Shown: positions 12,028-64,000 of the stretch, piece by piece
How the letters are laid out: the number at the start of each line of letters is the position of its first letter
Position numbering within the stretch: the first letter of the stretch is position 1
Made by a program: the position numbers and the translations under genes
NCBI GenBank assembly: GCA_020746835.1
Contig: JAGPNK010000029.1
Coordinates: forward strand, 62,001-126,000
DNA from: Stachybotrys elegans
Lineage: Eukaryota; Ascomycota; Sordariomycetes; Hypocreales; Stachybotryaceae
Length of the DNA: 64,000 nt
Reading direction: 5' to 3'
The notes under the pieces: model-generated
The model's database searches: none
Told to the model about the DNA's origin: nothing
What the model saw: only the letters and a program-made list of their open reading frames with translations

Positions 12028-12527
12028 AATATACATCAAGTATTGCATAGTCAAAGCGTTAGATTGAAAAGAAATTGCAATGAAACAGCAGGTAGCCGTG
12101 CAACATAGTAGGTAGCTGTGTTTCGTCATTCATATGCGCGAAGGAAAGAGGACGATATAGCTTACAGAGGCTACCGTATAAGTACCCAATCGAAGTCGTG
12201 CCTAGAGTCCTAACCCACGAGTTGAACGTCCTCAATCGACTTTACGACGTGCAAAGATAAGGAAGCTTTGGTAGCCAAGGTGTTTCCCCGCTGGTAAAAC
12301 GTCGGCTATTTTGCCTTAGGGTACACGCGGAATGGTAGGCGCATCATCCAATCATGAGTGGCAATGCTGTTAAGCAGAGCCTCATTATGCATCTTTTAGG
12401 CAGCAGCACATCCCCGCGCAAGACATTTTCATTTATTGTCATTCTTTCTTGATCAACCAGCTTCATCTATCGATCAAATGTCATAAATTCAACCTGGTCG
12501 CTGTCGAAGAAGAACACTTGCCTTGCC

Positions 12528-37925: not shown

Positions 37926-37969
37926 TTACTTACATGTAAATACTATGCCTCGGAATTCTGTCCCTTGTC

Positions 37970-38022
37970 TGGTGGCGTCGAGGGAGGGCGCGAAAGGAAG
38001 AATATTTCATTTCGAAAGGCAC
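37970..38022 (+). repeat. Dispersed repeat E, copy 1
   Basis: GTGGCGTCGAGGGAGGGC and the following 35 bp match 56830-56882, with differences that are largely C-to-T and G-to-A here (CCTTTCGTTCCG there, ATTTCATTTCG here). Confidence 0.65.
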
Positions 38023-38262
38023 CGAAAAGCACAAAAATTCACACCCACAATACCTATATTCGCAGTAAAATTCGCAGTAAAATACTGCTAGACACCTGAA
38101 GACGTTGTTCCATCTCAACTCTGTGATTATCGATACAGAATATATTGGACGAGCTTTCACGCCCCCTCCGCTCATGAGGCTCTAAACAGGCACTTTGGTG
38201 GAACCAGACGGCTTGATGGTTCTAAACAAGACTCAATAAGGACCAAAGACATTCCTGATTTG

Positions 38263-40135: not shown

Positions 40136-40395
40136 ACGATATGGTGGGCTGTCACCAAGTCGGCATGTAATGAGCCAATACCTGGATGATGACTGGCGCT
40201 TCCCACAACCATATCTCGCACGGATCAACCTCCGTGCGGCAGACCCACTAAAGGAGCAAGGAATGAAGCGCCAGAAATGGCTCACCCACATCCAGAAATG
40301 GAGGTAACACAAAGGGAGAGAACTGGCTCAGCAACCAGAACCAGACACGGCAGGGGGTAGGCTTAAACAAACTTTAACATGGGCAAGTACAGTAG
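40136..40395 (+). repeat. Dispersed repeat D, copy 2
   Basis: Matches 37611-37860 from GTGGGCTGTCACCAAGTC to AACTTTAACATGGGCAAGTA, including the paired CCAGAAATGG motif. Confidence 0.75.
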
Positions 40396-40610
40396 AGGCC
40401 ACTTTTTGTGTCGCCATTTCGTGTATTGAGTGGTCTTTCCGCACGGACTCCGAGCTCCACAATGTGGCTGTCACAGTGCGAATTCAATTAGATCATAGGC
40501 ACTCCTCCATAAACACCCTCTTTGTTCAGTCACTTCCAGCCTCAAAAATCCATTACTGGCTTTTTCGTTGAACAAAGTATTTCAGTAATGGGTGTTGATC
40601 CCTAACAGGT

Positions 40611-40725
40611 ACATAACTGGCTCAGCAACCGGAACCAGACACGCCAGAGGGTGGGCTTGGACGAAATTTGGCATGGGCAAGTATTGTCCTAATGATGGTA
40701 AGGGGAGGAACTTTATGACTATGGA
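40611..40725 (+). repeat. Dispersed repeat D, partial copy 3
   Basis: Starts at ACTGGCTCAGCAACCGGAAC and runs to GGGAGGAACTTTATGACTAT, the 3' half of repeat D. It ends about 100 bp before the GT25 gene, so it may supply part of that promoter. Confidence 0.7.
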
Positions 40726-40822
40726 TCTCCTGCTCCAAGCTGCGATAGCTTATACAACGGTCACCGGTACATTCCCTTCTTCTACTTAACGAAGTTAGTT
40801 ATTTGCTCTATCAATTAGAGCC

Positions 40823-42102
40823 ATGATTCTCCGTCGGCGTACCTCTAAACAAGCTACATGCGCACTCGGCGCTATGTTCATTTTTTTAGCCACTTTAAAC
40901 TACTGGCAATCATCTCTCATCTACAATGTCGATTCCGAGGGAACGTCCCCTTCCGGTTTGCTTCATACCCAGAACACCACTCTAGGTGTGAGTTCATACA
41001 GTTCGGTTTATTTTCTAATTATCTAACGCCGCCGCTTAGTTTGAAAAGATATTTGTAGTTGGATTACCCGAAAGAACCGATCGCAGAGATAGAATGGTAC
41101 TCCAGGCTGCTCTCAGCAATCTCAGCATCGAATTCATAGATGGCCCAGACGGGAAGGATGCTGCCGATAAGGCCATCCCAATCAAGCAGGGACACTCTCG
41201 GTTGACTAGTGGCGCACTTGGCTACCAGAGAGCACATATGAATGCAATACAAGCGTATGAGATGGTCGCCCAGAAGCGTTGTCTGTGTCTCTGACCATTT
41301 CTTTCCATAGGGTTGTTGAAAGACAGATATCCTCGGCATTAATCCTAGAAGACGGCACCGATTGGGACATTAGAATAAAGGAGCAGATGCGAGACTTTGC
41401 ACTCTCCAGCCGCACGCTTTTACAGCCTATGCTGGATTCACGGAAATTCGAAGCAGACATGAAGCTTCTAGGAACTGAGCCAGTCCCTGCCCTCCCCCTC
41501 AAGAATTTATGTTTGGAAACCTACCCAGGACTGTTGGCCCTGCCTTCTCTCCTTACGGTGACAACTGGGACGTTCTATGGGTTGGGAATTGTGGTATGAA
41601 CTTTGCCTCCAACGCATATCCTGATACGCCTAAAGGACGTGTGATTCATTTAAACGATATCACGGTTCCTGAGAGGCGCTATCTATGGAGCTTCAACCGC
41701 CCTTTTGCTCTGAAGGATATCTATCCAGAGCATACCCGCGTTGTCCATCACGCACAGGAAGGTGTATGCACTCTCGGCTATGCAGTCTCACAGCGCGGCG
41801 CTCAGAAGCTTCTGCATGAGGTAGGAATGAAAGATGTTGGTGGTGGCTTTGATATTTTATTCAGATACTTTTGTGATGGCTCCAAGGGACGAAGAAGACA
41901 TATTTGTCTAACAGTACAACCAGCCTTATTCCACCATTATCGACCAGCCGGCGCAAAGAGTGCCGGAAGCGGTATCCATGGAGACGATTTCCAGCATAAT
42001 GGTTCAACGGATATGGTAAGATGGAGCGTACAGCTCAATGCAGATTCGCTGCTGGAAGACAAGACAACAATGCGGGATCAGCTACCAGACGGTTCAAGAT
42101 AG
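40823..42102 (+). CDS. GT25-family glycosyltransferase, type II membrane protein, one apparent frameshift
   Basis: Family 25 enzymes transfer sugars in the secretory pathway or to cell-wall glycans. Exons 40823-40987 and 41040-41254 and the region from 41311 join in phase (introns 52 and 56 nt). The N-terminus has a signal anchor (CALGAMFIFLATLNYW). The GT25 start is KIFVVGLPERTDRRDRM. The acidic motif is ALILEDGTDWDIRIKEQM (the usual EDDVDWD has become EDGTDWD), and later come SPYGDNWDVLWVGNCG and VCTLGYAVSQRGAQKLL. Between about 41490 and 41510, next to a C run, the frame changes by one base and no intron fits, so the gene is either frameshifted or the sequence has an error there. The product would be about 390 residues. 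The changed acidic motif also hints at loss of activity. Confidence 0.75.
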
Positions 42103-46159: not shown

Positions 46160-47936
46160 ATGTCTCATCGCACGGCTGAATCTCATCCAAGACCAGGCCT
46201 AGTGTTGGAAATGTCACCCCCGCCAAACACGAGAGCCATGACAACTACGACACCATCCCTTCCATCGATGGACAGCGCTCCTACAAGTAATATGTCGCGA
46301 ATCTCCCCCAAGCCACCCAGGCTTGCGAATAAGCTTTCAAGATGTATCATGGACTTTGTGGAGCTGTTATGCATATTGCTACTTTTTGCCCTTGTAATTT
46401 TATTCGTTGAAACTACAAGAGCGGCAGAGCGGCGCTCAGATGAGGGCCTACCACTCTCGCCATTGCTAAGAATCAATGGCAGCACAACCATTGCGATAGT
46501 TCAAGCCTGTCAGGTGCTACTGCTTGCGTTGACAGGGCTTAGCCTCGACGCGACATTCGAGAGAGTGCAGTATTCGATCATGCAATCGCCAAGGGGACTT
46601 AACTACATTTGCTACCTTGCTCTGTCACCCGCCACGGGTTACTTGGGAACTCTAAGGTTTGTTTTTGCTCGACCACTGGCCAGTGTGCCTCTCTCGGCAA
46701 GGCTTTGGGGCTTTTTTAAGTGAGTGCACCTCAACCACTTGTCAAAGTTGATTCTAAACTGTGCGAGGATTTGCCTCAAAGGCGGAATATGGCTGTCTGG
46801 CATTGTCTTGTTCAGTAAGTGAATCGCCTAGAAGCATTGACTCTGCTGATCCAAGACAGTCAACACCTCCACTCCAGTTGTACTTGACACGGGAAACACG
46901 TACAATGTGACGGCCGGGATCGGGCCCTTCAACGCCTCTCTTGTACAACCCTTCATCGATTTTTTGCAGACGTTGGCGCCTCCAGGTCAGAACCAAACGA
47001 TCGTTCCGTATACATATACCTCTATCGTTAATATAGGCGTTATGAGTCCTGTAATTACAACACGTTCGGACCCAGCAGGCTGCCAAGGAGATGATTGCAC
47101 GTCATACCTTGTTACAGGAGGGCTAGAGTCGCTCACGCCGTGGCTACCAGAGACTCATAGCACTTATAGTCAAGTGAGGGTAAACGATATGCCCTCGGTT
47201 CAAATGGACGTCGAAATATCCCGAAATGATACATTTCTTCAAGACGAATGCGATGTATTTGGTGCTGAAAACCTTACCATTGGGATGAAACTATGCATAG
47301 CCATGGCACCGGGATCGAGCGGCTCATTACGAGTAGGTCGGTACCACAACATTCGCATTCCTAGCACCGCGGCTAAAGTTGCCAGGTCTGTTCATATGCT
47401 CTGTGGGAATCGGGGAACATGATTGTCTCCCAGTTGATCCGTTTTTTCCCAACATGACGGTTCATTCGTCATTCTTCACCCGCCAAGTAACTATAGTAGC
47501 ATCAAGATCCAACTATAGCATCGTGAGCGTTGGCGACAAGACCGACCCAGCGCCCTACAACTGGGAAGCCCGAGATATCGATGCATATCGAACCGCATTC
47601 CGATGGCTTCTCAACTACACTGCGGCTGGTATACCAGCGCCTTCCTCAACAATAGAGATTTTTTATACGGCTAGAAACCAGCTATCAAGTCGATCCACTT
47701 CTGGCATCCTTACACAGAACGTTCATGGGCTTCTGGTGTTTCCCTTCTGGCTGTTCAACGTGAACAATTGGGGTAATACCGAGGCATATAATTTACGGAT
47801 GCAAGCCAGTCCAAGGTTTGGTTTCGGAGGAGCCAGTCTAATTGGGTTGTCTTGGGTTGTCCTGAGCGTGGGAATCGACTTTTTGTGCATAGGGTTGGGG
47901 AAGGGGGAGACGTGGAGTGTTGAAAGGCCGGAATAG
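46160..47936 (+). CDS. Membrane-anchored glycoprotein of unknown function
   Basis: Four exons (46160-46719, 46768-46814, 46860-47332, 47379-47936) join in phase to 545 residues. A Ser/Pro-rich cytoplasmic leader precedes two or three TM segments (ELLCILLLFALVILFV, AIVQACQVLLLALTGLSL, GGIWLSGIVLF). A large presumably extracellular domain follows, with many N-glycosylation sequons (NTS, NVT, NAS, NQT, NDT, NLT, NMT, NYS, NYT) and a few Cys. It ends with another TM (IGLSWVVLSVGIDFLCIGL) and a short tail. This topology is common among lineage-specific fungal proteins; its role is unknown. The last intron uses an AAAG acceptor and is the least certain. Confidence 0.65.
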
Positions 47937-48024
47937 AGAGTCGAGATGAAGGAGCCACAAGGTCTTTAAAGGGGAAATATGGATTAACAATCTGAGTTGG
48001 GCTTATGTGGCCACTCCTCTGATA

Positions 48025-48114
48025 CAGTAGGGTTAAAGTTTAGCGTCCGCCGATCCAAACTTTGACTCTTTCAAAAAGGGTCCATTTTTGGCCCCGCGTG
48101 GCGCAGGCACAGTG
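48025..48114 (+). repeat. Left terminal inverted repeat (90 bp)
   Basis: Matches the reverse complement of 63182-63271 at 83 of 90 positions without gaps. Similarity ends abruptly at 48114, and TA precedes the first base. Confidence 0.92.
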
Positions 48115-48365
48115 TGTGGCTTGCTTCCAGAAGTCCCAGAAGTCTCTTACCTCTAACAGGAGACCGGCCCGTAGGGCCGCCATCAGACCTTTCGGAACGA
48201 GACTTGCTGGCAGCGTATGGGAGAAGGGGAGTGTTTAGTTCTGGGAAAACCCTTTCTATTGTTTTTTTAAGGATATTTTTTAATGAAAAGAAAAGCCCTA
48301 TAGTACTTGGCATGAAATATTGGAAATGATACCGCTACGTTTCATGGACTGCCGGGGGGATAACG
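48115..48365 (-). other. Possible Helitron 3' end region
   Basis: Read on the minus strand, downstream of the Rep-helicase gene, a perfect hairpin (GGCCC TAC GGGCC, 48178-48166) is followed eight bases later by CTCCTGTTAG ending at 48153. A short hairpin close to the 3' terminus is a Helitron hallmark. The expected CTRR end is not exact, so the position is tentative. If correct, the Helitron ends only about 40 bp inside the left terminal inverted repeat. Confidence 0.35.
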
Positions 48366-51300
48366 CTATTCGGTACCCTGACCCTCATAAGCATGTCTTG
48401 TTTCTTCTGCAAGATTTGAGAGTCTTCGCATGGCTTCGACAATGAAATAATCCATCTTGTTGCCGATAAAATCCTGTTGACGTATAGGGCTGAGGAGCTT
48501 GATGCCCTTCAGCGATGTACACCTAGACAGCTGCACATAGAGGCTGGTGAAGTCGCACTTGGTTGGTTCGCCATTGATGACACGATTTCCTCGAAGCTCG
48601 AGAAGAACTTCTGGAAAGGTCTTGCCCTGGGCTTTGTAGTCCGTAAGCGCGAAGGCAGGTACCACGGGCAAACCGCGGCGGGTGCATTTTCCGGGCAAAA
48701 ACCTGGAATTGCGGTTCGATGGATCAAGGGTCTGCGATAATGGGCGGATGAGCACCGTGCCAGGCGGCAGGGTAGGGAGGCCCCTGGTGTCCTTGGATTG
48801 CAAAAGCATGCCGAGGGGTGGCCCGAAATGGATGGTCACATCATCGGCGAGGTGGAACCCGGGGTAATTTGGATCCAATATGAAATCGTAAGTGATAAAT
48901 TCGGCACCATTGACAACCTTTAATCCTGTGTATATGTTTTGGTTGACAACCACCGGCATGCCTTGGGCGTAGAAGAAAATGCCGGGAATTTTGCAGGACG
49001 AGTCATCACCAAGTTCGATAGTCTTTGCGATCAGATCTTCCGACACAGCACCGCTTCGCCAGGTGTGCACAGAGACGAAGATGGAAATGTGTTTCTTGTG
49101 ACAACGAGCCCATTCGACGACGGCCTCCATGTTGAGGGCCCAGCGGTTCCGGTTTAGTGGTGTTATGGCACGCAGGCCCGCGCTGAACGTAATCTGATCA
49201 CGAGCGACGAGCTTGGTGTTGAGCATGAGAAGATCTTGATGTGTCTGAGTCCCAGCCCGCACCCTGTCAAGCAATGTACCTAAGTGAGGATCCTCTCGCG
49301 CACGAACCTGCTCCTCGAGAAGGACGACGTTCTTAAACATCTGCCACAGATTGTAGCCGCGATAGTGGGAAATGGCTGCTTGTCCCAATGAGGTCGTGGA
49401 CGGATCCAGCATCCTGTTGATCAAGAGACTCGTTTCTCTGACGGGAGCGAATTGGTAAAAATCACCCATTAATAGCACCACCGGAATCCCTCCAAACGGT
49501 TTATCGACACAGTCTCGAAGTGACTGAAGGTTACGGCTGACCTCGTACAACGTAGCTCCTCCAAGCATACTAACTTCATCGGTCACAAGAACCAATTTCT
49601 GCTTCCATGTCGACTTCTTAGCCTCGGAGAAAACAGGAAGTTTCGTCTGAGTGGAACGGTGGGTGTCTAACCCACAAGCAGAGTGTAGGGTCGTGCCGCC
49701 GATCTGGGCGGCCGCGCTCCCCGACGTACCGGTGATCTGGAGAAGATGTGGTTGACCTCTTGTCGAGAACACCCATTTCAAAGCATCAACGACTCGAGAT
49801 TTGCCTGTTCCTCCGGGTCCGCCGGTGTACTGAAAGTGTTGACCGGCAGAGTCAGGATCGGCGGCGTGGCGATCCAAGAATTTGCATACAAGTTGGAGAG
49901 CCATCACCTGGAGGTGATTGAGGGTGAAGTTTAGTGCGGCAGCATGCCCTAATTCTACAAAACTCATTGCATGATTCGAGTCCACCACTATGCGGCCCGC
50001 TTGGCTAATTGATTCTAGAGGCCGGCGCTGGACAGGATAATCTGTGTCACACTGGCCGACAAGGACATCATCCAATACCTGGTCAGCCACAGTGCTTGCC
50101 TGCGCTTGAAAGCCACCCTCCATCTCGTCCAGCATTTGGAGATGCAGCATGCCTTGGGCCTTTGCGGCAGCTTGAACATCCTGATGAGAGAGGGTCGGAC
50201 ATCGGTAGAAGTTTTGGGGACGCTGGACGAGAGAATGTCGTTCTTCTATTGGATTCTCGTGAAAAAGGTCCTGGAGCAGGCTTTGCAGCACTCGAGAGTC
50301 TCCTGTTAGACCGGTGCTCCGTACGGCGCTCTGCAGGATCTGAATTAGGGCCCCATAGGTTTGGTGGTTTCCGGCCGTCATTGCGGGCTCGTCGCGGTAA
50401 TCACCCTCATCAAGTGGAAACTCAACGTCGACGGTATCATCGCCTTCCGATCGGCTGGCCCAGAGCTTTGCGTCCTTTCGCGCATCATCCGCCGACCTTC
50501 TGAGCAGGGAGATGTTGGAAACGTGGGATCGCAGACGCGGTTGAAGCGAGGCGGCTTGATTCAACCAGATATTGGTAATATCACCGTCCGTCTCGTCGAG
50601 AAAGTCCTTCCAGGGCACAAATAAGGCCAGGTGCAGGACGGAGTTGCTAAATAGATCAGTCGTAGCTCTGAGAGCGTGTATGGTGGGCTTGTAGAGGCTA
50701 CCGCTTGACATAGACCGGGTGCTCATCATTGTGATCATCGCTGATGTATCGCTGGAAGATGGGCACCGCATAATCGGGCGGGCTTCGAAGTTTCTGCAGC
50801 CAACCATTGGTTTCCGGGGCAGTTTCGTCCAGTGAGATGTGGGTTTCATCGTCCTCCCGGCCATGGCGACGCTCCAGGCTTACCATTGACATGTAGTCAT
50901 ACAGGCACAGGGCCCTCAGAATTGGTCCGCGGCAACTGTAGGCGTCCAAGTACAGCAAGGTTCGGCCATTTTCTCTGAAGCCGACGGTCTCAGGAGGGTC
51001 GCTCGCATCGGCATGTTCTCCACATCGTCGACGCAGGTGTGGCCACCTTCGAAAAATGGACCAGTAAAGCGCAGTTAGGTTAATGAAGGACCATCGGGGG
51101 ACGTTGGTGAAATCCGTGTGGTAGCCGAGAAGGTGGTAACAGACCTCCACGGCCGAGAGCTGCCTCTCCGAAAATATCCTATTTGCCGTCCTCATCAAGA
51201 ATTGCCGTGTCTGGTTGACAAGGGCCGGGCGCAGGGTGGCGAGGTCAGTATCAGCCGTTAGGTTTGACGTCGGCTGTGATCCATCAGATGATTGGCGAAG

Positions 51301-54300
51301 CTGTTCAAGGATCTCGCGTGCAATGACTATACGTTTCCACATCGGCGTGTCCAGCTTCGTAGCGTAGTTTGTGATGTAAAAGACCATGGAAAGCCCCTTT
51401 GCCTTGGTCAAGATCATGGAGACATCGTGGTTGTGGCGAAGCCCGACTGCCATCGCCTTGTTGTATCGATTGACCATGGCGTGGTTGCGCCGAATCATAA
51501 GCAACCCGTCCTCTGAGAAACCTGTTTCTTCGACCCTCTTCCAGGGCGCTTTGAAGCGGCAAGCCGTTCGCCTGTGTGCCTCTGCGTCCCGGCTCGACAA
51601 TCCGAGGGAATACTTGATGCAGGTAAACGTGTGGGAATGGATCTGGCTGCAGTATGCAATGTAATTGGCCTCGTCCTCGAACGAGGCCGTCAGCGTTTCG
51701 CTGTTCCTCATCATACTCTCGACGGGCTCAATTGGTTTTCTCCTCGCACGCACGGTCTTGCCGGCCGTCTCATCTAGGCATTCATGGAAAACCGAATCAA
51801 CGAAACGAACCACTTGGGCTCGGTAGCTCTGTTCCTGGGGATTGGCCATGCTATCGCAAAGCGTCGGGAGCTGCAGGTTCCCATGGAGCCATAGCAGCCC
51901 GTGCAGATGGAGGCTGCCACGGTCGTTCGTTTCGACGGTCGCGTAATAATGGCTAGTCCTCCCGAAGACCGCTTCCTCCCCAACCTTGACGTAGTGTTCA
52001 AAGAAGAGGGAGATCTCGCGGTGAAAGAAGAGGGCAGAGCTGACAGGGTCTAGAGTGCTGAGAGCGATCTTATCATACCGTCCCTGAATGTCTGACAATA
52101 ATTCTTTGGCTGTATCGTAGTCGTGCAGCCTATGAATCGAAAGCCTCATCTTGATTGGATTATTGATGTCGTTGGGGTTGATGGTGAACCAAATCACTGG
52201 CGTGCCCGTCCAGACTATGAGAGATTGTATCTTCCTCCTCATCAACAATCGAGTCTCGTTCGATAGAGGCTGTGCGTGTCCGAAGATGGATAATTCGCGA
52301 AGCAAGAATGCTACGCCATCGTCCGTCGTCCTCTTGTTCTGACGCATCTCATCCTCGGCCAATTTTAATCGCGCCGCAGTCAAGCTTTCACAGACCCGCT
52401 CAACTCGGTCGAACGAGCCCCGTGCCATGCGGACCATGCTGATGCGGCGGTTGGATGATCGGAGAAGGATGTTGAAGACAAGAAAACAGAATACAGGATG
52501 TGTGGCGAATCGGCCACCATGGCGCTCGAGCACGTACTTGGCCCAGTAGACGAGCGAGTGGTTTTGAGTGGGATTCTGTGGAGGTTCCGGGATACCACCC
52601 TGAGACGGTTCCGTGCTCGGAATTACCTTTGGGCCTCCCCTACCCCACGGGAATAGCGCAGGGAAGGTCCGGGGGAAGAAGTCTTCGTGTAGGCTGTCAG
52701 CGAAATCGGAGCCGTGCTCTACCCGAATGAAGGGTTGTTCTCCTGCAGTGCCTAGGCCCATCCCACAAGCCTGGCCATTCTTGCCATGCCGATGAATGTC
52801 TGTCTGCATAGCGTTTGCCAGGAAAGACAACTTTTCTGATTCAGAGAAGGTGGCAGCCTCATCGAGTGGAAACATGCCGGAGGCAGATGTCTCGTATACG
52901 ACGTCGCGGAATCGATCGGATTGTTCCACCACGGGTTCCTCGGGCGACATCTCCTCGTTGGAGTGTAGTCGCGCGGAGTCGAGGAGTTCCTCAATGGTCG
53001 CGGGCTGTCTGTCCGGTAGTCCCCGGTCAGTGTTTGGAACGATCTGATCTGTCTGTACTCTCTCTGCCACTGATGGTTCTTCGCGTCGCATCAGTCCAAA
53101 GATAGCAGTTGGGACGGTCGAGCCAGCCTCATAATGCCAATTGTCCATCTCGCCATGGTCGATGCCAATATGCTCATAGAGTGGATTGTTCCTCTGAAGC
53201 CATATCAGTGCATTTCTCACGACCGACTTGCGGACCCGAAGAAGGTGCCCGACGTCTGTAGGGTCAGGTTTGCTCGAGCCGCTCCAGGAGACGTGAATGT
53301 TCTCGACCACCTTGAGTAGCGGATGCGGTAGCACAGTTGCTACCAGGTCATCGACTTTATTCGGAAACACGACAATATGCCCCTTCACATGCTTCCTGTA
53401 TTTCAGGCCGGACGGAATCTTGTTGTTGACGGTGAATTTCGTGATGTAGCCGAAAGGAGCCTGGAGGGCGATGAGTCTTTCCTCGACGGGAGAGAGATCA
53501 TCGAGCTCCTTCGGGTATCGATGCTCGCACCCTATGTGCATGTTATTAACCGAGCAAGACTTGGGCAGTCTTCCGTTCTGTAATCCGTTGTGACAGTCAC
53601 GGCACACGTCCACGTCACGACCGCCGTGTCGTGGTAGACACTGCTCGCAAAGCTGAAGAGCACTTGTCGCCTGCACCAGAGACGGCGCCAGCAGATCTTG
53701 CCAACGACATTTTGTAAGCGCGGCGGGTGGCTGCTTCTTGTAGCAGAAGATGCAATGGGAAACCGGCAAGGAGTTTTCGTCAGTGAAGGCTTGGTAAAAC
53801 GTTCTGGCTGCTTCTGCTTGGATATCGAGCGTGACTTCCTTACACCATGATCTCGACGTGGAGGCCCTCTGCTTCTCCAGGAAGTCAGAACTGTAGGATC
53901 GTAACACGAAGGCGACCGAGTCACGTTGCCTCTCCCTGGAGACCATCCCACGTGGTCTTTTAGTGTCTCGGCCCGGACGCGAGGATGGCGGTGTCAGAAG
54001 GCCATCTTCCTCTCTTGGCCGCTTCGAGGAGCGGGCCGCAACAGGACGTCGCATCCGATGCGGGCTTGTCGTTTGTGGGCCTGTCGCATTTCTCGTTAGC
54101 CTCTGGTGAGCTTGCTCTTCGTCTCGTCGGCGCGGCCCCATCTCACTCGGGCTAAGACGGACTTGGCTCGAGGGGACCGCCGATGCCGAGACGTTTTCGA
54201 CACGATCTATGGCAAGCTGCCGCTGCCGAGCTCGGTCCTCGGCACGCTTTCGCGTCATCTCTGCCAACGTTCGACGAATCTCCGCAATTGGAACTCTGAT

Positions 54301-54447
54301 GATGTCTTGCGCCCCAGGCCGCGCAGCGGCTGACTGGGATGGCTCTTGTTCTGACCGACTCCGTCTACCTGTCCGTCGACTGCCCATGCTGTCGAGGACA
54401 CGCCGAATCTCTTCATACGGCACTCTGATAGGAGATTCATCAGGCAT
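48366..54447 (-). CDS. Helitron Rep-helicase (RepHel) transposase
   Basis: RepHel proteins move Helitrons by rolling-circle replication. Two large frames overlap at 50698-50864; a 55-nt intron (50701-50647, GTAGCC donor, CTGAT branch, TTTAG acceptor) joins them in phase into one 2008-residue protein. Residues about 200-330 hold the Cys-rich N-terminal region (HCIFCYKK, LCEQCL, CRDCHNGL) and the SVNNMHIG...LSPVEERLIAL block. The Rep domain has the HUH motif HLHGLLW (about H847 and H849) and the two-tyrosine segment FYITNYATK (about 1024-1028). The C-terminal Pif1-like SF1 helicase has Walker A GGPGGTGKS (about 1525), Walker B LVTDEVSMLG, LLMGDFYQFAPV, TDYKAQGKTF and SLYVQLSRC. All catalytic motifs are intact, so it may be active. 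Confidence 0.93.
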
Positions 54448-55209
54448 AGCGACTTGTCCACACCTAGGAGGATTTCATGGGGAAACCGAAGGAAAATGCC
54501 CGCAAGCGCGGTTGTCCGAGGAAACCATGGCCCAGGATAGCGCATGAGGCAGGAAATAATGTCCCCTTAGCGACTAAATCTCAGGCAGCAACCATATCAT
54601 CAACCAAAGCAAGCCCTTTTCTTTTTCTTTCTTTTTCTTCCTCCTCTTTTCTCGTTTTTTTTTTTTCTTTTTTTCTTTTTTTCTTTTTTTTGTTTTTTTT
54701 TTTGTAAGCCATCTGCTCGGGATGCAGCAACTCCGGTCGGATCACCAGACGCATTGCGCCTGGAGATAGTGCCGCGCGTGGGTGAAGTGAGGCATTCAAG
54801 AGCCGCGTGCCCCTGTACTGATGCAGACGATCATGCTGGCGTGTCGGAGAGCATGAGAATCTGTTTCATCGGGTGGGATTGCAAGGATTGTGTCTGTCGC
54901 ACCTCGTTACGCAAGTCTCCGATCGTACGAATTGTAACATAATGGCTGGAAGAAAGGCTTAGACGCCGTATGGGAAAAGGATAAATTTCTCGATCCGAGT
55001 CCACGATCTTTCTCTCAGAACCCTATTCTTCTCTCTTCTCTCTTCTCCTTTCTAGTCTTCCACTAGGGGAGATGTAATCGTGGGTTCGTTCATTCTCCTT
55101 GTTTCTTGTCACCGCAAAGCGAGCAGGAAAATCGACAACCCGTCAACCCCCACTTGTTCTGTTTCGTTCCGGAATACCGTATCAAACAACCATCCCTGGC
55201 GCCTCCACT
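54448..55209. promoter_or_regulatory. Divergent upstream region of RepHel and its companion gene, with a long pyrimidine tract
   Basis: The region separates the start of RepHel (54447, minus) from the companion gene (55210, plus). A tract at 54617-54706 is almost pure T with some C on the plus strand. A second CT-rich stretch at 55010-55060 precedes the companion gene and looks like its leader. Confidence 0.5.
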
Positions 55210-56415
55210 ATGGCAGGGCCGGCGCAACGAGGAAATGGTCTTGGCCAAGTTCCCCTGAACGCCCTAGGCGTCCAGTTCTTCTCCAGCCTCGAATGTGTCG
55301 AGGTGATTACCTCCGCTGACAGGCAGCACATCCGAGGTCATAATCTCGTCGGGGCGGTTCGCCTGCAATTCGTTAGACCACCCTACTTTGAAGACAAGGG
55401 GGGCGAGCATGCAGAGCTGCTCGACCTGCAGAACAGCGAGCTCGATATACCTCTCTCACTGTACGTGTATCCCTTCCCCGAGATGGGAGACTGGGAGGGC
55501 CAGTGGTTCTTCTTCGACGTACAGTTGCACCCTCATGAGCTGCACTTCCGCCGCAAGGTCCAAAACGGTGATGAATCGGTTATCGACTTATGGGAAGACT
55601 CGTACGCGAGGCTGGCACAGGTCCGTGGACAAATGTGTCTCCAGCCGTACGTGCTATCCTTACTCTCAACGAGTGACTGGCCCTGGAGGACTAACCGGTG
55701 CAGCAGAGTGGCGGAGAGGTCTTTGAGGCTCGCAGGGAGCTGCTTCCCCACCATGGCACCGCGCGCCAGCTTCCATGGACCCGTTGACACGACGACATTC
55801 AGGTTTAAAGCCGGCTCTCTGTCAGAACAGCAGCTGAAATGCTGCGGCTTCATCCAATGCCAGACATATCTCACGCCGCCGCGTGAAAATGAAACACCAT
55901 TCAAGGGGATCCAGACATTCCACATATTGGCCTACATGCCGCATGATCAACAACCGTGGAGGAGCCGGATCGGCTGGATGAAAAACTCGGCCGAGGGCGG
56001 TTTCGTATCCAGAAAATGGCTTTACGGTAGGGGAAGCATCGTCGGCGTCTTGAATGTCGCTTTGCTAGAAAAGGAGCCCGGGCCCGGGAAAGACATCTTG
56101 GTTGTTCTTGTCGACGAGTTTGGCTTCACCTCGAGAGCCACTTTCGAAGCAGGCAGCGGTAGCATTTCCCCCCAGAGACCCAGGCACGAGTCCGGCAGGT
56201 CCAGAAACCCGTTCAGCAGCAGCCCAACAACCGGTCACTCTCTGGGGCCCTCTCCAAGGTCCGAAAAGAAGGACCCGGTGGATGACATACCAGAGGACGT
56301 AGAGCCCCCGACGGCAACGAAGCGGCTCTTCAAGCCTCAGCACGGATCAGGTGGGTTGATTACCCCGGGTGCTAAGGATGAGTTTATTCATCTTGCTGAC
56401 AGCGGGAGTGACTAG
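55210..56415 (+). CDS. Helitron companion protein of unknown function
   Basis: The ATG at 55210 (MAGPAQRGNG) starts a 401-residue product; the frame is open 37 codons further upstream without a good start. The N-terminal 150 residues look like a beta-rich domain (ALGVQFFSSLECVEVI, HNLVGAVRLQFV, LSLYVYPFPEMGDWEGQWFF). A GTACGT...GTGCAG segment of 57 nt near 55649-55705 could be an intron that keeps the frame. The middle has CCGFIQCQTYLTPP, KWLYGRGSIVGVLNV and ILVVLVDEFGFTSRA. The C-terminal 100 residues are Ser/Pro-rich and disordered. I do not recognise the fold; a single-strand-DNA-binding or accessory role for the Helitron is only a guess from the head-to-head arrangement with RepHel. Confidence 0.65.
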   Translation: MAGPAQRGNGLGQVPLNALGVQFFSSLECVEVITSADRQHIRGHNLVGAVRLQFVRPPYFEDKGGEHAELLDLQNSELDIPLSLYVYPFPEMGDWEGQWFFFDVQLHPHELHFRRKVQNGDESVIDLWEDSYARLAQVRGQMCLQPYVLSLLSTSDWPWRTNRCSRVAERSLRLAGSCFPTMAPRASFHGPVDTTTFRFKAGSLSEQQLKCCGFIQCQTYLTPPRENETPFKGIQTFHILAYMPHDQQPWRSRIGWMKNSAEGGFVSRKWLYGRGSIVGVLNVALLEKEPGPGKDILVVLVDEFGFTSRATFEAGSGSISPQRPRHESGRSRNPFSSSPTTGHSLGPSPRSEKKDPVDDIPEDVEPPTATKRLFKPQHGSGGLITPGAKDEFIHLADSGSD

Positions 56416-57292
56416 GTTCCGCATCGGATGATACCGTAGGTGGGAGCGCTGGTGTGTGGTCCCAATTCAAGGAGCACCTTGTAGTATGGCGATCGAGTCT
56501 AACAAGCTTGCTGCAGAGTCATCGGTTACGGTAGTGGTGGCATCAGAGGAAAGCGACTCGCCCGTGCAAGGCAAGAGCGCCCTAAAGCGAAGTGGAGCTG
56601 CTGGATCAGTCAGAGAGGGACCGCCAAGGAAACGGATGAGCTCGTGGAAAGTTCAGGACGCGCAGGACGCCTCATAAGCTAAAGGGAATGAGCTAATTAC
56701 GCCAGAGGGATAAGGAATGGTATTTGATTGGACATTAGTCCCACATAAATTTGTGGCTATGACTGTCAAAATGTGGCTTGATGAAAAAAAACGATGTGGC
56801 TTTATTTTGTGGCCGTGCAAGTGTGGCGTTTTGTGGCGTCGAGGGAGGGCACGGAAGGAAGAACCTTTCGTTCCGAAAGGCACAGCCAGCTTGTAGTGCC
56901 TTAGGCATCAAAAGGCATTTTATGACTAAGCTCGGGGAAGAAAGAGTAAGCGGAATTTTGCTTCAATGGAATATTATATATATTTTAAGCTACATAATAA
57001 TCCAACAATATTCCCATCGGGGTCCCTTATACCGAGCGCAGTGGTTGCAGGGTTTAAGTATGGTACTGCGTCCTGCCTTCTTGTAGGATACTCAGGCCAC
57101 ATTTTCCAGAATATTCCTCAGTGCCGCCATTCAAGAAGGATAAACATCATGGCTAACGGCTCTGCTTAATGCACTAGAATATTCTAGAATATGAGATCAA
57201 TGTATATAATCAGGAGCTTCCCTATGACCCTCCAAAGCAGAGTTATTTTACAAAATAATATTTACTATTACGGTAACTAATAGAAGAAGCTA
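56416..57292. other. Junction region between Helitron genes and NLR gene
   Basis: It contains a 63-codon frame at 56486-56677 (+) that I cannot assign (basic C-terminus, GPPRKRMSSWK) and repeat E. From about 56960 AT-rich sequence with short palindromes (CTAGAATATTCTAG at 57174-57187) follows. The right end of the Helitron should lie in or beyond this stretch, but I cannot fix it. Confidence 0.4.
56830..56882 (+). repeat. Dispersed repeat E, copy 2, with hairpin
   Basis: Matches 37970-38022. It contains the perfect palindrome CCTTTCG TTC CGAAAGG (56866-56882). A related CCTTTCGGAACGA also occurs at 48188-48200 near the other side of RepHel in inverted orientation. Confidence 0.65.
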
Positions 57293-60200
57293 TTAGGTTA
57301 CACGTATACAGAAAAAAGTGACTCCTCCAGATGCAGAACCAATTACCACTCTGGATTCTGAGATAGCGAAACTGTGTTTGGAGACTGGCCGGAAGTTCAC
57401 CGGCAACCAAAGTGTCTTATTCCCGTCCCAGGTAATCCAACAGCGATCTTCACCCAGCCCGTATCCTGATCGTATTATGTTACTTATATCCAAAGGTAGG
57501 TTAGATGGTAGGCGCGACAAGTGAGTGATGTCTATCATAAGAGTCCCAGCGTCTGTGTGAAGTTGGGAACCGTCAGGAGTAAATGATAGCCGAGATGTTG
57601 CTAGAGCATTGAAAATTTGCAGACACTGGCCGGTCGCGGCATCCCAGAGCCGAACGGTATGGTCATCTGAGGCCGAGGCAAGATGCTTGGCATCCGGCGA
57701 GAAGACCACTGAGCTTACCCAGTCGCTATGGCCCTTAAGCGTCTGGAGGCATTGGCCCGTCGTGGCATCCCAGAGCCGAACGGTATGGTCATCTGAGGCT
57801 GAGGCAAGGTGCTTGGCATCCGATGAGAAGACCACTGACCTTACCCAGTCGCTATGGCCCTCAAGTGTCTGGAGGCATTGGCCCGTTGTGGCATCCCAGA
57901 GCCGAACAGTACGGTCATATGAGGCCGAGGCAAGATGCTTGGCATCCGATGAGAAGACCACCGAGTTTACCGAGCTGCTATGGCCCTCGAGTATCTGCAG
58001 GCACGAATCCCAGTTCTGTTTCAAAGTCCCAGATACAGACAACCAAGCCCATTGTGTCTTTAAGAACACCTTCCGTATTGGGCTTTTGAGTGGTAAGACA
58101 GCGATAAGAGCGTAGATCTGAAGCGGGTAAGAATCAATAGTCGACAGATAGGTGCGGCTAAACCGGATAGCATCATCAAGTAGTGTGGATTTTTCTTCGT
58201 TTTCCTGGGTCTTATATAGCAATGAGCATCTTTTATTATGAAAGTAAGATAGGTAAAACGCACCTGTAAAACAGAACGCAATGTTCGCAGAATTCCAAGG
58301 CTGTCCGATGCCCGCCCGATTAGACTCAGTGTTTCAATCCAGTATAGTAGGTAGCTGGAAAGGAACAGGTGAATTTCATCATCCGAGATGTGTATATCTC
58401 CTTTCTGTAGGTGATCGACCCAGTAAAGGCAGGCATATTCAAGCTCTGGCGGGATATGTTTAGTTATCGTTTGCTGATCTATATCAGATCGAGCAATTCC
58501 TGGTCTTCGCAAATCGCACATATCCCTTCGAAGCTTTTCCTTCATGACGCGGAGACAATGGACCACTATGTCTTGGTGCATCTGCTTCTCGTCTATCCAA
58601 AGTGGTGTTTTATTCCTTGTCTCAGGATCGACTAAGAAATCTCGGAAAGACAGATGAAATAGGCGTACAGGATCCTTTGATGACATAGGAACATGCAGAA
58701 CTGAATGAAGCATCTTCAGTTGATCGACAATCATGGCTTGTGGGATATTTGACAGCCCCTCTAGAGCCGAGCTTGAAAGGGGGCTCTCAAGAGTAATAAT
58801 AATGCCGACAAGCTTTCGAAACTGTTGAATGACATCGTTTCTCTTTCGTTCCGATTGAATGCCCACGATTTGTCGATTCAAGACTGGCAGGTACGTCGCA
58901 TCGAGGCCTGAGGTTGCACTCTTGCCCCTGTATGCTAGAATCTCCTCGAGAAGCTCATCAGGGTGGCCATGACTGGGCTCGGAGATGAATCGACAAGCAG
59001 TTGCGGCCGAGATAAAGAGTGGCTTTGCGAGGTCCACCAAAGCCTTGATCCTGGAATCACCCGGCCAATCTGGAGGTAGCTGTGTTTCCACGACCATAAG
59101 GTTATAATCATCCCGTATCGATCGGAATTCGTGGTCTAGAAATATCGAGATATCATGTTCGATAATGTCCGATCTAATTTCGTGAAGAATGAAATCTTGG
59201 TAGGTGCCCTGTGCCTTTGCGAAACCAAGGCGGATCGGCAAATCTGGCCTACTTGTCATGAAGACTTTCAGCCAAGGTATAGGTTGAGACTGCATGCGCG
59301 CAAATAGATGAATGATGGTTCTAATCTTGTCATCGCCCTCGCATTCATCTAGCGCATCCACAATGATGACAAGTGGATCCGACAAAGTGATCTTCGACAG
59401 GGGCTCAAAGATCAATTTCTGGAACTGCTCCCGCAAAGCAGATCCCGAAATCGTCGAGTCTTTCTCGATTGCGCTCATCAGCATCGGCGCTAAGCTCGGC
59501 TCTTTATCCGCTAGCTGGCGGGCAATTGTCGTCATGAACTTAGTAGCATTACCTCGATCAGCCTCTCCCCTTTTGAAGAAAAAGCTGGCACCGAGGTGAT
59601 TCGTTCCAGACAGCGAGCGAGCGATGGTCCGTGATATGGTTGACTTTCCCGTCCCAGCCATACCGTTCAACCAAAAGATTGCTTTAGCGCTAGGATCGTG
59701 AACCCATGCCAATATCTGGCGGAGGAGTTCCACTCGTGTATTTCCTAAGCAAGTTGGATTCGACTCCTCGTCATGAGAGTTAAATGGCGCGCCCTTGGCA
59801 ATAGGAAGCCGGTCAAGCACAACAACTTGATCATTGTTCAAGAAAATGGCACTATTAGGCATTCCTGTTAGCCCAAAGGGTAAGCTTGACAAGGATAATC
59901 ATGTCTCACAGATGGTCTTGCTGTAACGCCAGGGAAAGTGTCTGCGTGTAACGTGCAATGTCCTGGGCATCCCTCTCCATCTCTTGGCTGCTGAGAGGCC
60001 ATCTTAGGGCAGAAAACTTGATGCGGGCGATGATCCTGTGCCGTGTTCCTCCTGAAGGAATTTTTTGCTCGAGCAGTTTAAGTTTCCCATCCAATGTTTG
60101 AAGTTTACCTAGGCTCTTTTTAAGCCCAGCCTCCAGCTTCTGCGAGCTTTTAAGCCTCGCAGAGTTAGGACCGCTGAGCAGCCCGTTGATGTCGTTTGCG

Positions 60201-60352
60201 ACCTCATGGAGACTGTTGACCTCTTGCAGGAGTCGCTGTACATCATTTCCTGCATTCCTAACGTTTTTGATGTATGGTGAACATATCGAAGCGATCCTGG
60301 CCGATAAGTCAACGACGGCGATAACGCTAGCCGCGATGCCGAGCCCTTCCAT
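57293..60352 (-). CDS. NLR-like receptor: Helo-like N-terminus, NACHT, WD40 repeats
   Basis: Three exons (60352-59910, 59851-58264, 58210-57293; introns 58 and 53 nt) give 982 residues. The N-terminal 140 residues (GLGIAASVIAVVDLSARIAS, then helices to QTLSLALQQ) resemble the Helo-like domain of fungal cell-death NLRs. The NACHT domain has Walker A GMAGTGKST (about 211-219) and Walker B VIIVDALDEC (about 309-318), plus SRPDLPIRLGF and HLSFRDFLVD. The C-terminus has three nearly identical 42-residue WD40 units (about 747-872; GHSDWVRSVVFSSDAKHLAS, DHTVRLWDATTGQ), then a divergent blade and a tail. All motifs are intact. This is the layout of HET-E/HNWD-like incompatibility proteins, but with a Helo-like instead of a HET domain. 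The gene lies inside the TIR-bounded element. Confidence 0.93.
57626..58003 (-). repeat. Three-unit 126-bp coding repeat (WD40)
   Basis: Three consecutive 126-bp units differ at only a few codons (SSSVNS, SDWVRS, SDWVSS; SYDRT versus SDDHT; DATTGQ versus DAATGQ). The changes fall on blade-surface positions, as in rapidly evolving fungal WD40 NLRs. Confidence 0.9.
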
Positions 60353-60650
60353 GGCGGAATGGCATTGTGGGTTTGAGGCCTTGCTTAAACTTGGGACTGG
60401 GAGGACGAGCCAGCTCGGGCGGGGTAGTCTAGGCTATGGAGTAGAGCAAGAGTAAATTCTGCTCCATTTTCGTGATTGGCGCGATAAGGATAAGCACGCC
60501 AGCCTAAATATAGCATTGTCACGTGCATTATAGGCAGCCATGCTGCCACGTGTCATCTGTTCGAGTCATCCACATACGGGTCGACCCTCGTAGCCAGGCG
60601 TTCGTCAAGAGGTTCCGCATCACCTTCTTTGCCACCCAATATCGTGAATC
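60353..60650. promoter_or_regulatory. Divergent promoter of the NLR gene and the 60651 gene
   Basis: Only 298 bp separate the two starts. CACGTG (a bHLH-type site) occurs twice, at 60520-60525 and 60547-60552. Between them lies a perfect inverted repeat, GGCAGC CAT GCTGCC (60533-60547). The arrangement suggests shared control. Confidence 0.5.
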
Positions 60651-61976
60651 ATGTGCCCGCCGTCTGATGATACTTTTATGTACGCTTATGATGCAAGCCA
60701 GCTCGAGTTAAACTATAGCACACCGGTGCTACATGACTTCGGCAGTCCCAGTGCCAGTCCTAGTGAGCAAAGACAGAACCCCCGCAGAGGAGGTCAAGCA
60801 CTGCTCCCCCTACTTCAGTTAAGCGACTGGACCCCTGATTTCCAGGATGATGGCTCAAACCCTACTTGTATTCATTATGATATTGAATGGAAACTACAGC
60901 TCCGGAAGAATAAGAAGTCCACGACACTCGCCGAGATCACCGAAGAGAACCTCACCTTAGCACCGGGCGACTACTGGGAGAAGTTCCTATGTCTGGCTCT
61001 AGCGAAGATGGTAGAAGCCAAGCTGCCCGGTACAAAGTACGAGCCTGACGAGACGACGATGATAGTGTCGACTACAAAGCGTGGCGAGAAGAAGCTCAAG
61101 CTACAGGCCGACGGGTTAAACGTAGACTGGCATGCCGTAGAGAACAAACTGAGGGCCTGGGGTCGCTTGTTTGAAGATGGCAATAAGCTGAGAATCGATG
61201 TATGCTTCGTCTACAAGGAAATTATCCAACCGGCCGATGTCACAACACAACAAAATGGCCGGGGTGCAACAGGCAGGCAGCTTAATGCCAGAGACCGACT
61301 TCTGGCTCAGCAAGAGGAAGAATCGGGAACAAGACCCGTCTGGAAGGAGGTCTATGCTCTATTCCATTGCATCGGCGTTCCATGCAGCAACAACCAATTC
61401 TATTGCTGGCGTGACCCGGAGAGCAAGAAACACTACAAACTCGATACTAACATCCTCGACAAGCTTGTTGACCATGCTGAAGAAGGCAAGGTGTTGAGGA
61501 CACATGACGACGTGCCTGATCATATCCGCCAGTTGATCTATAAACATGCCGAAAAAACTGCGGAGCGCAAACAGCTCAAACGTAAAAGATCGGGAAGCCT
61601 GCCGCCCATCAACATAAGCATCGCGTGCCCAGGGCATCAAAACCATGCTTCTGGCGACGACATGGGGAACACTGGGACGGGCGCAGGAGGCACCATCGTA
61701 GCTCAGTCCTATCATGCCAAACTCGTGATTCCACTGCCAAGAGACAAGGCATTAGCAGAGTACTACCAGTGGCAGTGCAGCAAGGTCGATAGTCCGACCT
61801 GGAAGGCGGGCTTCTGGGCACCATACCAGATCACTAAGAAGGAGTGCCTGGACTTGAGGCACGTTTATACAACCAAAGATGTTGAGTTCTATACCAAGCA
61901 GGGCGTTAAGCTGGGCATTGCTTTATCGTTTATTGAGGATATTCGGGACTGGGTGCAAGAAACTTTCAACGAGTAG
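60651..61976 (+). CDS. Conserved fungal protein of unknown function (dispersed family)
   Basis: A single-exon frame of 441 residues. Visible blocks are an acidic/aromatic start (DDTFMYAYDASQLELNYSTP), IEWKLQLRKNKKSTTLAEIT, APGDYWEKFL, the IVSTTKRGEKKL strand, KLRAWGRLFEDGNKLRIDVCF, RGATGRQLNARDRLLAQQEE, then CSNNQFYCWRDPESKKHYKL and a C-terminal YYQWQCSKVDSPTWKAGF segment with HVYTTKDVEFYTKQGVKLGI. The end could be a small helical domain. I recall similar repeated hypothetical proteins in several fungal genomes but no assigned function. A truncated relative is at 11421. It is divergent from the NLR gene and ends 47 bp from the convergent transposase stop. Confidence 0.75.
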   Translation: MCPPSDDTFMYAYDASQLELNYSTPVLHDFGSPSASPSEQRQNPRRGGQALLPLLQLSDWTPDFQDDGSNPTCIHYDIEWKLQLRKNKKSTTLAEITEENLTLAPGDYWEKFLCLALAKMVEAKLPGTKYEPDETTMIVSTTKRGEKKLKLQADGLNVDWHAVENKLRAWGRLFEDGNKLRIDVCFVYKEIIQPADVTTQQNGRGATGRQLNARDRLLAQQEEESGTRPVWKEVYALFHCIGVPCSNNQFYCWRDPESKKHYKLDTNILDKLVDHAEEGKVLRTHDDVPDHIRQLIYKHAEKTAERKQLKRKRSGSLPPINISIACPGHQNHASGDDMGNTGTGAGGTIVAQSYHAKLVIPLPRDKALAEYYQWQCSKVDSPTWKAGFWAPYQITKKECLDLRHVYTTKDVEFYTKQGVKLGIALSFIEDIRDWVQETFNE

Positions 61977-62023
61977 AAATAGGATTCGTATTTTGGCCAG
62001 AATGCAGTGCCTGTGCATAAGTG

Positions 62024-63018
62024 CTATGATGATTCCAGGGGCGACGGCTCAATGGTCAACCCAGCCTTGCGGAAGTGACCCTCGGCACTGCTTTGCAGAG
62101 CGCCAACTGCCTTGATGCACGACTTGATGTATTCCCCGAAATCCTTCCTGATGAGGCCGATGTGTTCATCCCAACGTGACTTCACGCAGGCCTTCAGCTG
62201 TCCAAAGTAGCCTTCAATAGGATTTGTATCTGGTGTGTAGGGTGCTGTCATCACCGATTTCACCCCAGCCCGATCGCACATCTGCTTGATCTCGTCCGAG
62301 CAATGGATCGCAGCGTTATCCATGACAAGAACAGACTCTGGTTCGGGCCATTTCCCGCAATGACAGAGCAGCTGCTCGATGAAGTCTAGAAATGTAGCAG
62401 TGTCAGTGGTTCCACGATAGACTCGGGACAGCTTGATGCCCCTCTGCGTATATGCCGCCAGTATCTGATATCGTTCTTCGCGCTGGAAATGCGCCGTCTG
62501 AACTGGGGTGATGCCCTTGGGAGCCCATCCCTTATCCCGAACCCCGATGCTTCTATCGAGGCCAGACTCGTCAATAAAGATGAGATGGTATGACTTGTAA
62601 CCTCCACGCTTCAGTCTGTACTGGTAAAAGTGTCGCAGCTCTGGCCTTCGCTGTCGCGCGATGCGGCGCGTCTTCTTGTGTGTCCAATTTGCAGATTTTA
62701 GGGTTTGAGTGATATTCGCAGGCGACACATCCACCTGGTAGGTCTTACGGAGGAAGGCAATCATGTCACGGCGTCGCATATGAGGCCTCTTATCCAAGAG
62801 TTTGAAGAGCGCTTCACGCATCAGGGGGGTTATCTTTGGGTCGGGGCCGGTACGGTTCGATGGTGCTGTCGGAGTTCCATATCGTTCTACGGTCGCTCGA
62901 ATTCTGCGTACGCTGCGTTCGGTGCAAGGGATCGTTTGGGCAATATCCTTGATCGGAACCTCATTCAAGAGAAGAGCACAAACCTTCTCGCGCTTCTCGG
63001 GGTTAGTCGTGGGGCCAT
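62024..63018 (-). CDS. Tc1/mariner-type DD34E transposase, probably disrupted at its start
   Basis: The transposase cuts at terminal inverted repeats. The N-terminal part has a helix-turn-helix (NEVPIKDIAQTIPCTERSVR) and a second winged-helix region (RPHMRRRDMIAFLRKTYQVD). The DDE_3 domain has IFIDESGLD (first Asp), SVLVMDNAAIH (second Asp) and NPIEGYFGQLK (Glu), with 34 residues between second Asp and Glu. The main frame has no ATG at its 5' end. An ATG at 63018 with a family-like MAPRLTP start lies in a different frame; the two frames would meet at the C4 run 63002-62999 if one C were restored, so a one-base deletion is likely. The catalytic part is intact. Confidence 0.85.
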
Positions 63019-63181
63019 TGGGGGATAAAGCACTCTTTGGAGGTTTATGTTGTAGGAGACAGAAATGGCTGCCTGGCCACTCGAGGATGGTCGGCCAATG
63101 AGTCAGCCAATGTTCGTGTCTGAGGCATCAACTTGGTTGTTAGTGCTACAGTGCCCGGGGTACTTCCACAGGCCAACTAGG

Positions 63182-63271
63182 CACTGTGCCTGCGCCACGC
63201 AGGGCCAAAAATGGACCCTTTTTGAAAGTGTCCAAGTTTAGGTTGGCGGACGCTAAACCTTAACCCTACTG
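63182..63271 (-). repeat. Right terminal inverted repeat (90 bp)
   Basis: Reverse complement of the left repeat with seven mismatches and no gap. The outer end reads CCCTACTG and is followed by TA. Confidence 0.92.
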
Positions 63272-63576
63272 TACTAGGTAGACAGCTCTGGCGGATAAGG
63301 TTGGTGGACTCATAACAACCACCCAAACCGAGTCCAGTTTGATACCTCTTTCGTCACAGTGTTGAGTCAATTAACCCTTATCTTTTCTGTCTCATTATTG
63401 GCTTGGTTGTTATACGACCGGCATTCTTGCATGTAGACTCTTGGCATGATCTCCGTCACCAACAACACCTACAACCTAATCCAAGTACAGCCCAGAAGCT
63501 TGCTCCCGTGATACAACGTTCTTATTTCTCCCCCAATCTTTCTGTACACGTTAGAGCAGCCTCTACAGTACCTCTA

Positions 63577-64000
63577 CTATAGCGCAGAGTCAGTATAACG
63601 AGGACTCTCTCCTCCAGCTTGGTTTTCATAAAGGCCGCCATCCGCTAAGTCTCGGCCAGAAGCTACGGATTCTGTGCTCATGCACTGTTCATAGAAGCTG
63701 GTCGGCGTAATACCATATTGCTTAACAGCTTCGCCATAGTTATAATAGTCTATCGCCATTAGACGTTTCGGTATTGAGTCATCGATAACAGTAGAGCAAA
63801 TCTTTCTGGCTCTCAGGAGCAGGCCACGGAGATGATCCGATTTATCGTATAAACGGCCTCTTAGTTGATCATAGAGCTGTGTCCTTTCTTCGGCCTTTAT
63901 CCAAACCGATGTGTTCCTAGGAACAGCCAGGAGAATAGTGTATCGGCCAATGTCCTGTTCTTGGCCTAAGTCGCAGAGCTCCTTCCAGAATTTCCGCCGC
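63577..64000 (-). CDS. C-terminal part of an unidentified protein (runs off right edge)
   Basis: The frame is open from the window edge to TAG at 63577 (about 141 residues). It is helical and charged (RRKFWKELCDLGQEQD, WIKAEERTQLYDQLRGRLYD, RGLLLRARKICSTVI) with a Tyr-rich segment (AIDYYNYGEAVKQYGITP) and a polar end. No domain is recognised. It lies just outside the element's right end and is the first flanking gene on that side. Confidence 0.45.
   Translation of the reverse strand, partial: RRKFWKELCDLGQEQDIGRYTILLAVPRNTSVWIKAEERTQLYDQLRGRLYDKSDHLRGLLLRARKICSTVIDDSIPKRLMAIDYYNYGEAVKQYGITPTSFYEQCMSTESVASGRDLADGGLYENQAGGESPRYTDSAL

Follow-up and report, generated by a model that had tools for sequence, protein, structure and literature searches.

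A Tc1-type transposon lineage in Stachybotrys elegans that probably carries a NOD-like receptor gene as cargo

Does a receptor gene that lies between two transposon ends travel with them? This question is raised by a 64,000-nucleotide stretch of the genome of the fungus Stachybotrys elegans (hereafter the window), in which two terminal inverted repeats (TIRs) enclose a Tc1-type transposase gene and a complete gene of the NOD-like receptor (NLR) type. By what means fungal NLRs increase in number, disperse, and exchange domains is, to our knowledge, an open question. Our analysis indicates, with a probability of roughly 90%, that the NLR gene is cargo of this transposon and the transposon its vehicle. 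The window comprises positions 62,001–126,000 of its source contig, which is C22 in our working labels (C1–C48 and so on); the genome measures 43.4 Mb in 61 contigs. The features of the element, in window coordinates, are as follows.

48023–48024, no strand: left target-site TA, from the sequence; a single TA stands at the junction in both empty sites described below
48025–48114, plus strand: left TIR, on the WD40 side, from the repeat scan and genome matches
57293–60352, minus strand: whole NLR gene, three exons and two GT-AG introns (predicted splice sites)
57293–58204, minus strand: NLR exon 3, the C-terminal part, including three similar 42-aa WD40 repeats at 57618–57995, from Pfam and a repeat scan
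58204–60352, minus strand: NLR exons 1 and 2 with both introns, from Pfam and predicted splicing
59851–58264, minus strand: NLR exon 2 (NPHP3_N/NACHT), predicted splicing
60352–59910, minus strand: NLR exon 1 (PigL_N-like), predicted splicing
60648–61976, plus strand: partner gene of unknown function, adjoining and converging with the transposase gene
62024–63127, minus strand: Tc1-type DD34E transposase open reading frame (ORF; DDE_3), from Pfam; not in phase with the start codon present in the C47 copy
63182–63271, minus strand: right TIR, on the transposase side, from the repeat scan and genome matches
63272–63273, no strand: right target-site TA, from the sequence

The two TIRs are 90 bp each, are identical at 83 of 90 positions, and enclose a span of 15,247 bp. 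Their inner limit is sharp: identities per ten bases run 10, 9, 8, 8, 9, 10, 10, 9, and 10, then 5, 6, and 3 past approximately position 90. Both tips read CAGTAGGG, with TA immediately outside each. An inverted-repeat scan of positions 47000–64000 (at least 25 nt, 12-nt seeds) returned two pairs, the TIR pair (115-nt arms, 85%) and a 29-nt palindrome; an Rfam search of 48000–63300 gave no matches. The original prediction had described these repeats and placed between them a transposase, an NLR gene, a conserved unknown gene, and a Helitron gene pair (48366–54474). Alignment and the repeat scan bore out the repeats, and each of these genes was recovered.

The transposase matches DDE_3 (E = 3.7e-25), its D-D-E residues are spaced by 83 and 34 residues, and it scores 141 bits against an IS630 model with a cut-off of 100. 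Together with TIRs and a TA target duplication, this DD34E enzyme places the element in the IS630-Tc1-mariner group. A PDB search with the C47 transposase found nothing beyond weak matches of short length to retroviral integrases (best E = 3.7e-4). The NLR was given a spliced model in the window copy alone. That model is intact and encodes 980 aa with a PigL_N-like N-terminus, an NPHP3_N/NACHT part, and WD40 repeats, which is the NLR arrangement of an N-terminal domain, a NACHT-type NTPase, and C-terminal repeats. Pfam matches are NPHP3_N at 1.7e-35, NACHT at 5.6e-07, and WD40 at 2.6e-41, and the N-terminal PigL_N match reaches 23.6 bits, below the cut-off of 27.2. A structure prediction for exon 1 was all helical and too poor for use, with a predicted local distance difference test score (pLDDT) of 46.4. 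PADLOC gave weak matches for the NACHT exon.

A key step in the argument is whether the two ends arrived together. Flanks of three insertion sites (window, C7, and the C15 type shared by three copies) were joined at one TA and matched to the genome, and an uninterrupted paralogous site was found for all three. The joined window flanks are contiguous on C29 (96%, positions 1–452 of 452) and on C33 (89%, 2–413), with a single TA in both. The proposal that both TIRs stem from one insertion is thus upheld and two unrelated ends as their source are rejected; the expected empty site exists, in the form of paralogues within the same genome. The joined C7 flanks are contiguous inside the window itself (97%, 184 of 184; TA at 40388–40389), where 3.8 kb (37934–41779) is collinear with the flanks of C7:16846–22596 at 96–98% and the insert is absent. 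The joined C15-type flanks are contiguous on C33 (86%, 23–189 of 240) and C29 (83%, 15–189). The copy at the start of C47 stands outside this set, its right flank being missing at the contig end, and a paralogue of the C16 left flank at C16:297.2k runs on without the element. Because joined flanks of three sites match uninterrupted paralogous sites, the NLR appears to have moved as cargo. That the NLR and the ends probably moved as one unit is, on these comparisons, about as strongly supported as a single genome permits.

The left TIR matches at least 22 places in the genome, of which 13 lie on seven NLR-bearing copies: the window, C47:1–7262, C15:352.2–357.0k, C32:122.2–127.0k, C47:14.6–19.4k, C7:16846–22596, and C16 from 287119. 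This number of matches and the contiguous TA-joined flanks on C29 and C33 together argue that the pairing of the TIRs is not chance. The seven copies occupy five distinct sites, since those on C15, C32, and C47:14.6k have flanks in common (on the right of C15 over only ~70 bp) and would represent one insertion that was later duplicated. The C47:1–7262 copy is collinear with the element, with left TIR, NLR, partner gene, transposase, and a right TIR truncated by the contig start. Left and right ends can be told apart across copies, and their order is retained. The notion of a unit unique to this locus is accordingly abandoned, as NLR-bearing relatives lie at four other sites, and the collinear C47 copy and the empty sites uphold the prediction of a Tc1/mariner-type element carrying a complete NLR.

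The NLR itself follows the ends. When the genome was searched with the NACHT exon, the best seven of the 54 matches listed (77–100%) were the seven TIR copies, and the eighth stood at 45%. With exon 1 as query, five of the seven matches lay in TIR copies, and the other two stood at 28%. Since the seven closest NACHT matches all lie beside such TIRs, at five distinct sites, the NLR likely belongs to the element. One lineage of NLRs (NACHT at least 77%) is therefore found in this genome only with DNA-transposon ends. Two loci were excluded from these counts: C7 from 5074 and C5 from 1433176 each have a right TIR, part of a transposase, and an NLR that is divergent and has NACHT_N (scanned at C5), and a left TIR was not found. 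Over the 4.9 kb that leads up to the NLR the two loci are 92% alike, but where the NACHT part starts they agree at just 71–74%.

A contrary explanation is chance enclosure: ends of separate elements would have come to stand on either side of a resident chromosomal NLR, or segmental duplication would have spread the whole region. Such duplication is common here: C5 and C7 share 11 kb, C16 and C34 more than 6 kb, and C15, C32, and C47 their flanks. Moreover, 9 of the 22 TIR places lie off the counted NLR copies (C35, C7 twice, C15:145k, C38 twice, C22:146.8k, C5, and C40); these are right-type ends, six of them accompanied by part of a transposase and three not. However, the outer flanks (1.2–1.5 kb) of the window, C7, C15-type, and C47:1 copies (the last on its left side only) show no mutual match at E = 1e-6. 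The uninterrupted empty sites at all three sites tested already contradict this account, and so does the retained order of distinguishable ends, which leaves it highly improbable.

The element was predicted to be giant, at 15 kb. Its span is due to a nested Helitron, and a 15-kb element as such is rejected. The block and its contents are the following.

48160–56881, no strand: nested Helitron block; its site is uninterrupted in the copies on C47, C15, C32, and C7
48366–50879, minus strand: Helitron helicase ORF (PIF1), from Pfam
50698–54474, minus strand: Helitron Rep ORF (Helitron_like_N, DUF6570), from Pfam
55078–56415, plus strand: ORF of unknown function inside the block, without a Pfam match at E = 0.01

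At the point of this 8.7-kb block, the copies on C47, C15, C32, and C7 read CTAACAG-(C/T)CA straight through; the C16 copy was omitted from this comparison because its left side is rearranged there. The absence of the block from these copies indicates a later insertion, so the Helitron gene pair is not a passenger as first proposed. Like other Helitrons, the block has a Helitron_like_N Rep gene, a PIF1 helicase gene, and a 3′ hairpin end that recurs elsewhere in the genome, including at window positions 37972–38022; it is nested in the window copy only and does not belong to the NLR element. Helitrons insert without a target-site duplication; here each edge of the block shows ACAG or CAG, perhaps by chance. 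Without the block, the element measures 6,525 bp and has three genes: transposase, partner, and NLR.

Nor is the conserved unknown gene a passenger. In a genome search with 33 transposase matches, a partner-gene match adjoins all ten that are near full length, whereas shorter decayed matches at C15:349k, C33:24k, and C29:115k have none; the gene is the usual companion of this transposase. A PDB search with the partner-gene alignment gave a best E of 0.23, and a single-sequence structure prediction was too poor for use (mean pLDDT 35.8). A related two-gene element of 2.88 kb that lacks the NLR lies at C42:47364–50243. The cargo-free two-gene copies compared are 94.1–99.6% identical pairwise, and five copies of their end sequence are 98–100% alike. 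The existence of this cargo-free family suggests that transposase plus partner is the normal condition and that the NLR was added to it. A 343-bp form resembling a miniature inverted-repeat transposable element, with ends related to those of the two-gene element (73–84%), was also observed in six copies (C48, C34, C33, C22, C15, and C1); their equal scores suggest recent activity. With the Tc1/mariner superfamily, and with its Tc1-type group, whose fungal counterpart we take to be the impala-like elements, the present element shares DDE_3, DD34E, CAGT ends, a TA target, and empty sites. It differs in its two-gene core, whose second gene is a partner of unknown function, in the complete NLR that it has inherited as a third gene, and in size: 6.5 kb in the window and ~7.3 kb at C47, versus 2.9 kb for the cargo-free relative.

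How long the three genes have traveled together was examined by comparing copies with a simple Nei-Gojobori script. Between the window and C47, ratios of nonsynonymous to synonymous divergence (dN/dS) are 0.09 for the transposase, 0.11 for the partner, and 0.18 for NACHT, with dS values of 0.53, 0.66, and 0.65, respectively. The similar dS values suggest that transposase, partner, and NLR have probably been long together in transit, and the three (NACHT standing for the NLR) appear to have co-diverged under purifying selection. The case is thus one of a small TIR transposon carrying an NLR long enough for cargo and transposase to diverge together. Decay of the NLR copies by repeat-induced point mutation was rejected on dinucleotide indices: in five NLR copies, TpA/ApT is 0.62–0.72 and (CpA+TpG)/(ApC+GpT) is 1.32–1.45, compared with 0.80 and 1.31 in window positions 1–48000 and 0.78–1.00 and 1.00–1.21 in five short transposase-end fragments. 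Stops within NACHT-query matches were likewise rejected as decay: they fall within the conserved second intron or past its end, exon 3 being read there in a different frame.

These values bear on whether the NLR is a neutral passenger, captured once and amplified, of no use to element or host. Gene capture is common among DNA transposons, exon 1 is less constrained (dN/dS 0.19–0.39), and the three window repeats may be too few for a sensor of the HET-E type to function. Against this, NACHT dN/dS is 0.13–0.21 over ten non-independent pairs, the NACHT exon is free of stops at all five sites, where exon 3 is open as well, and the NACHT exon has been kept even though five of the seven copies have lost the full transposase gene. 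Variation in the WD40 repeats, described next, argues in the same direction, and we regard neutral passage as rather unlikely.

The five NLR sites have 3 (window), 8, 9, 12, and 12 WD40 repeats. Across 44 repeats from five genes, the proportion of nonsynonymous differences (pN) exceeds that of synonymous ones (pS) most clearly at positions 7, 9, 25, 27, and 29 of 42 (0.26–0.54 versus 0.00–0.34) in a plain comparison made without a significance test. Entropy exceeds 2.4 bits at positions 7, 9, 25, and 27. Position 6 is variable, yet pS exceeds pN there; low-level excess of pN also occurs at positions 2, 18–21, 23, 31, 37, and 42. The HET-E and HET-D sensors of Podospora, members of the HNWD family, show WD40 variability of this kind. 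As in that family, a NACHT part is joined to highly similar 42-aa repeats varying mainly at a few positions. The present genes differ in that they are transposon-borne and have a PigL_N-like or PNP_UDP N-terminus; the HNWD-type HET domain gave no match at E = 0.01 in the ORFs scanned.

Two kinds of N-terminal domain occur on one NACHT-WD40 chassis: PigL_N-like in the window, C47:1, and C15-type copies, and PNP_UDP_1 at C7 and C16; the C7 N-terminus matched a PN-superfamily effector in PADLOC. At C16, the sequence right of 291826 (to 298000), PNP exon included, is a copy of C34:605090 down to ~598139, 95–100% identical in pieces. In the C34 region the PNP exon is followed by a weak NACHT match and hence probably encodes the N-terminus of a different NLR. 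Next to the C16 stretch copied from C34 lies an older, decayed remnant of PNP. The C16 copy looks as if ectopic recombination had exchanged its N-terminal domain, an event that would explain the missing right end as well; transposition was considered as the origin of this chimera and set aside, recombination with the C34 region fitting best. Elsewhere in the window, positions 12453–16445 hold a second NLR-type gene region with a PNP_UDP-like part (60% to the C16 domain), an NTPase-like part, and many highly similar ankyrin-type repeats, the last two judged by eye from ORFs.

Our studies allow a mechanism to be proposed. A two-gene Tc1-type core would have gained a complete NLR between the partner gene and the left end. 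The transposase would cut at the two 90-bp ends and paste into TA, taking the NLR along. Copies deprived of the transposase gene may be mobilized in trans by transposase made elsewhere, as suggested by the C7 copy, which lacks that gene and lies inside a recently duplicated segment; alternatively, its gene may have been lost after insertion. The NACHT and WD40 exons have stayed open, the WD40 sensor would change in its surface residues and in how many repeats it has, and copies differ in their N-terminal domain. The Helitron entered the window copy later. The NLR itself may act as a receptor for recognition and thereby set off cell death, a reading suggested by open exons, selection, and resemblance, and on these grounds we lean slightly toward a working receptor. 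The best reading of the sequence is therefore a Tc1-type transposon lineage that would disperse and diversify a putative recognition receptor. It offers a concrete vehicle for the dispersal of cell-death-type receptors and a possible route for the spread and change of immune-type receptor genes. More tentatively, functional fungal recognition receptors could be genes of a transposon lineage, sown to new loci where WD40 sensor and N-terminal effector diversify, such that part of the innate or allorecognition repertoire would be generated by, and perhaps serve, a Tc1-type element.

The NLR might instead serve the element, for example by punishing its loss or by acting against other genotypes or competing mobile DNA. 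Close relatives (at least 77%) in this genome occur only in the element, and the NLR has co-diverged with the transposase and outlasts its gene. However, no antidote gene was recognized, and the partner gene, being present in the cargo-free relative as well, is not NLR-specific. We consider this role distinctly unlikely.

Several observations weigh against a cargo-bearing transposon that disperses a receptor. The copies bear only traces of past insertion. In the window, the transposase ORF is in a different frame from the expected start; the C47 transposase is open, but this sole full open copy ends at a contig edge, and five of the seven NLR copies lack the full gene. In the C15-type left end, the outermost 13 nt have no match, and both C15-type empty paralogues read CA where the occupied site has TA. 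The C16 copy has a left end alone, with no right end within the 10.9 kb searched, and its N-terminal part is rearranged. The three-repeat window array is possibly an assembly collapse. Finally, the empty sites are paralogues within one genome and not alleles of other strains.

Among larger fungal mobile elements, Starships likewise have NLR-type cargo. The present element differs in its DDE transposase, long TIRs, TA target, and much smaller size, and the DUF3435 tyrosine-recombinase captain that stands at the 5′ end of Starships was absent from the eight ORFs scanned (Pfam, E = 0.01).

Two further patterns were seen at target sites. At C7:158905, C35:4777, and C40:70655, paralogous flanks meet the end at two neighboring TAs (CAATACATA versus CAATA preceding the TIR), as expected from a short excision footprint or from two insertions. 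The C16 left flank resembles the C5 and C7:5k flanks over ~345 bp, and this one flank adjoins a left end at C16:287117 but right ends at C5:1433176 and C7:5074, with almost coincident junctions; either one site may have been used repeatedly or an inversion between TIRs may have occurred.

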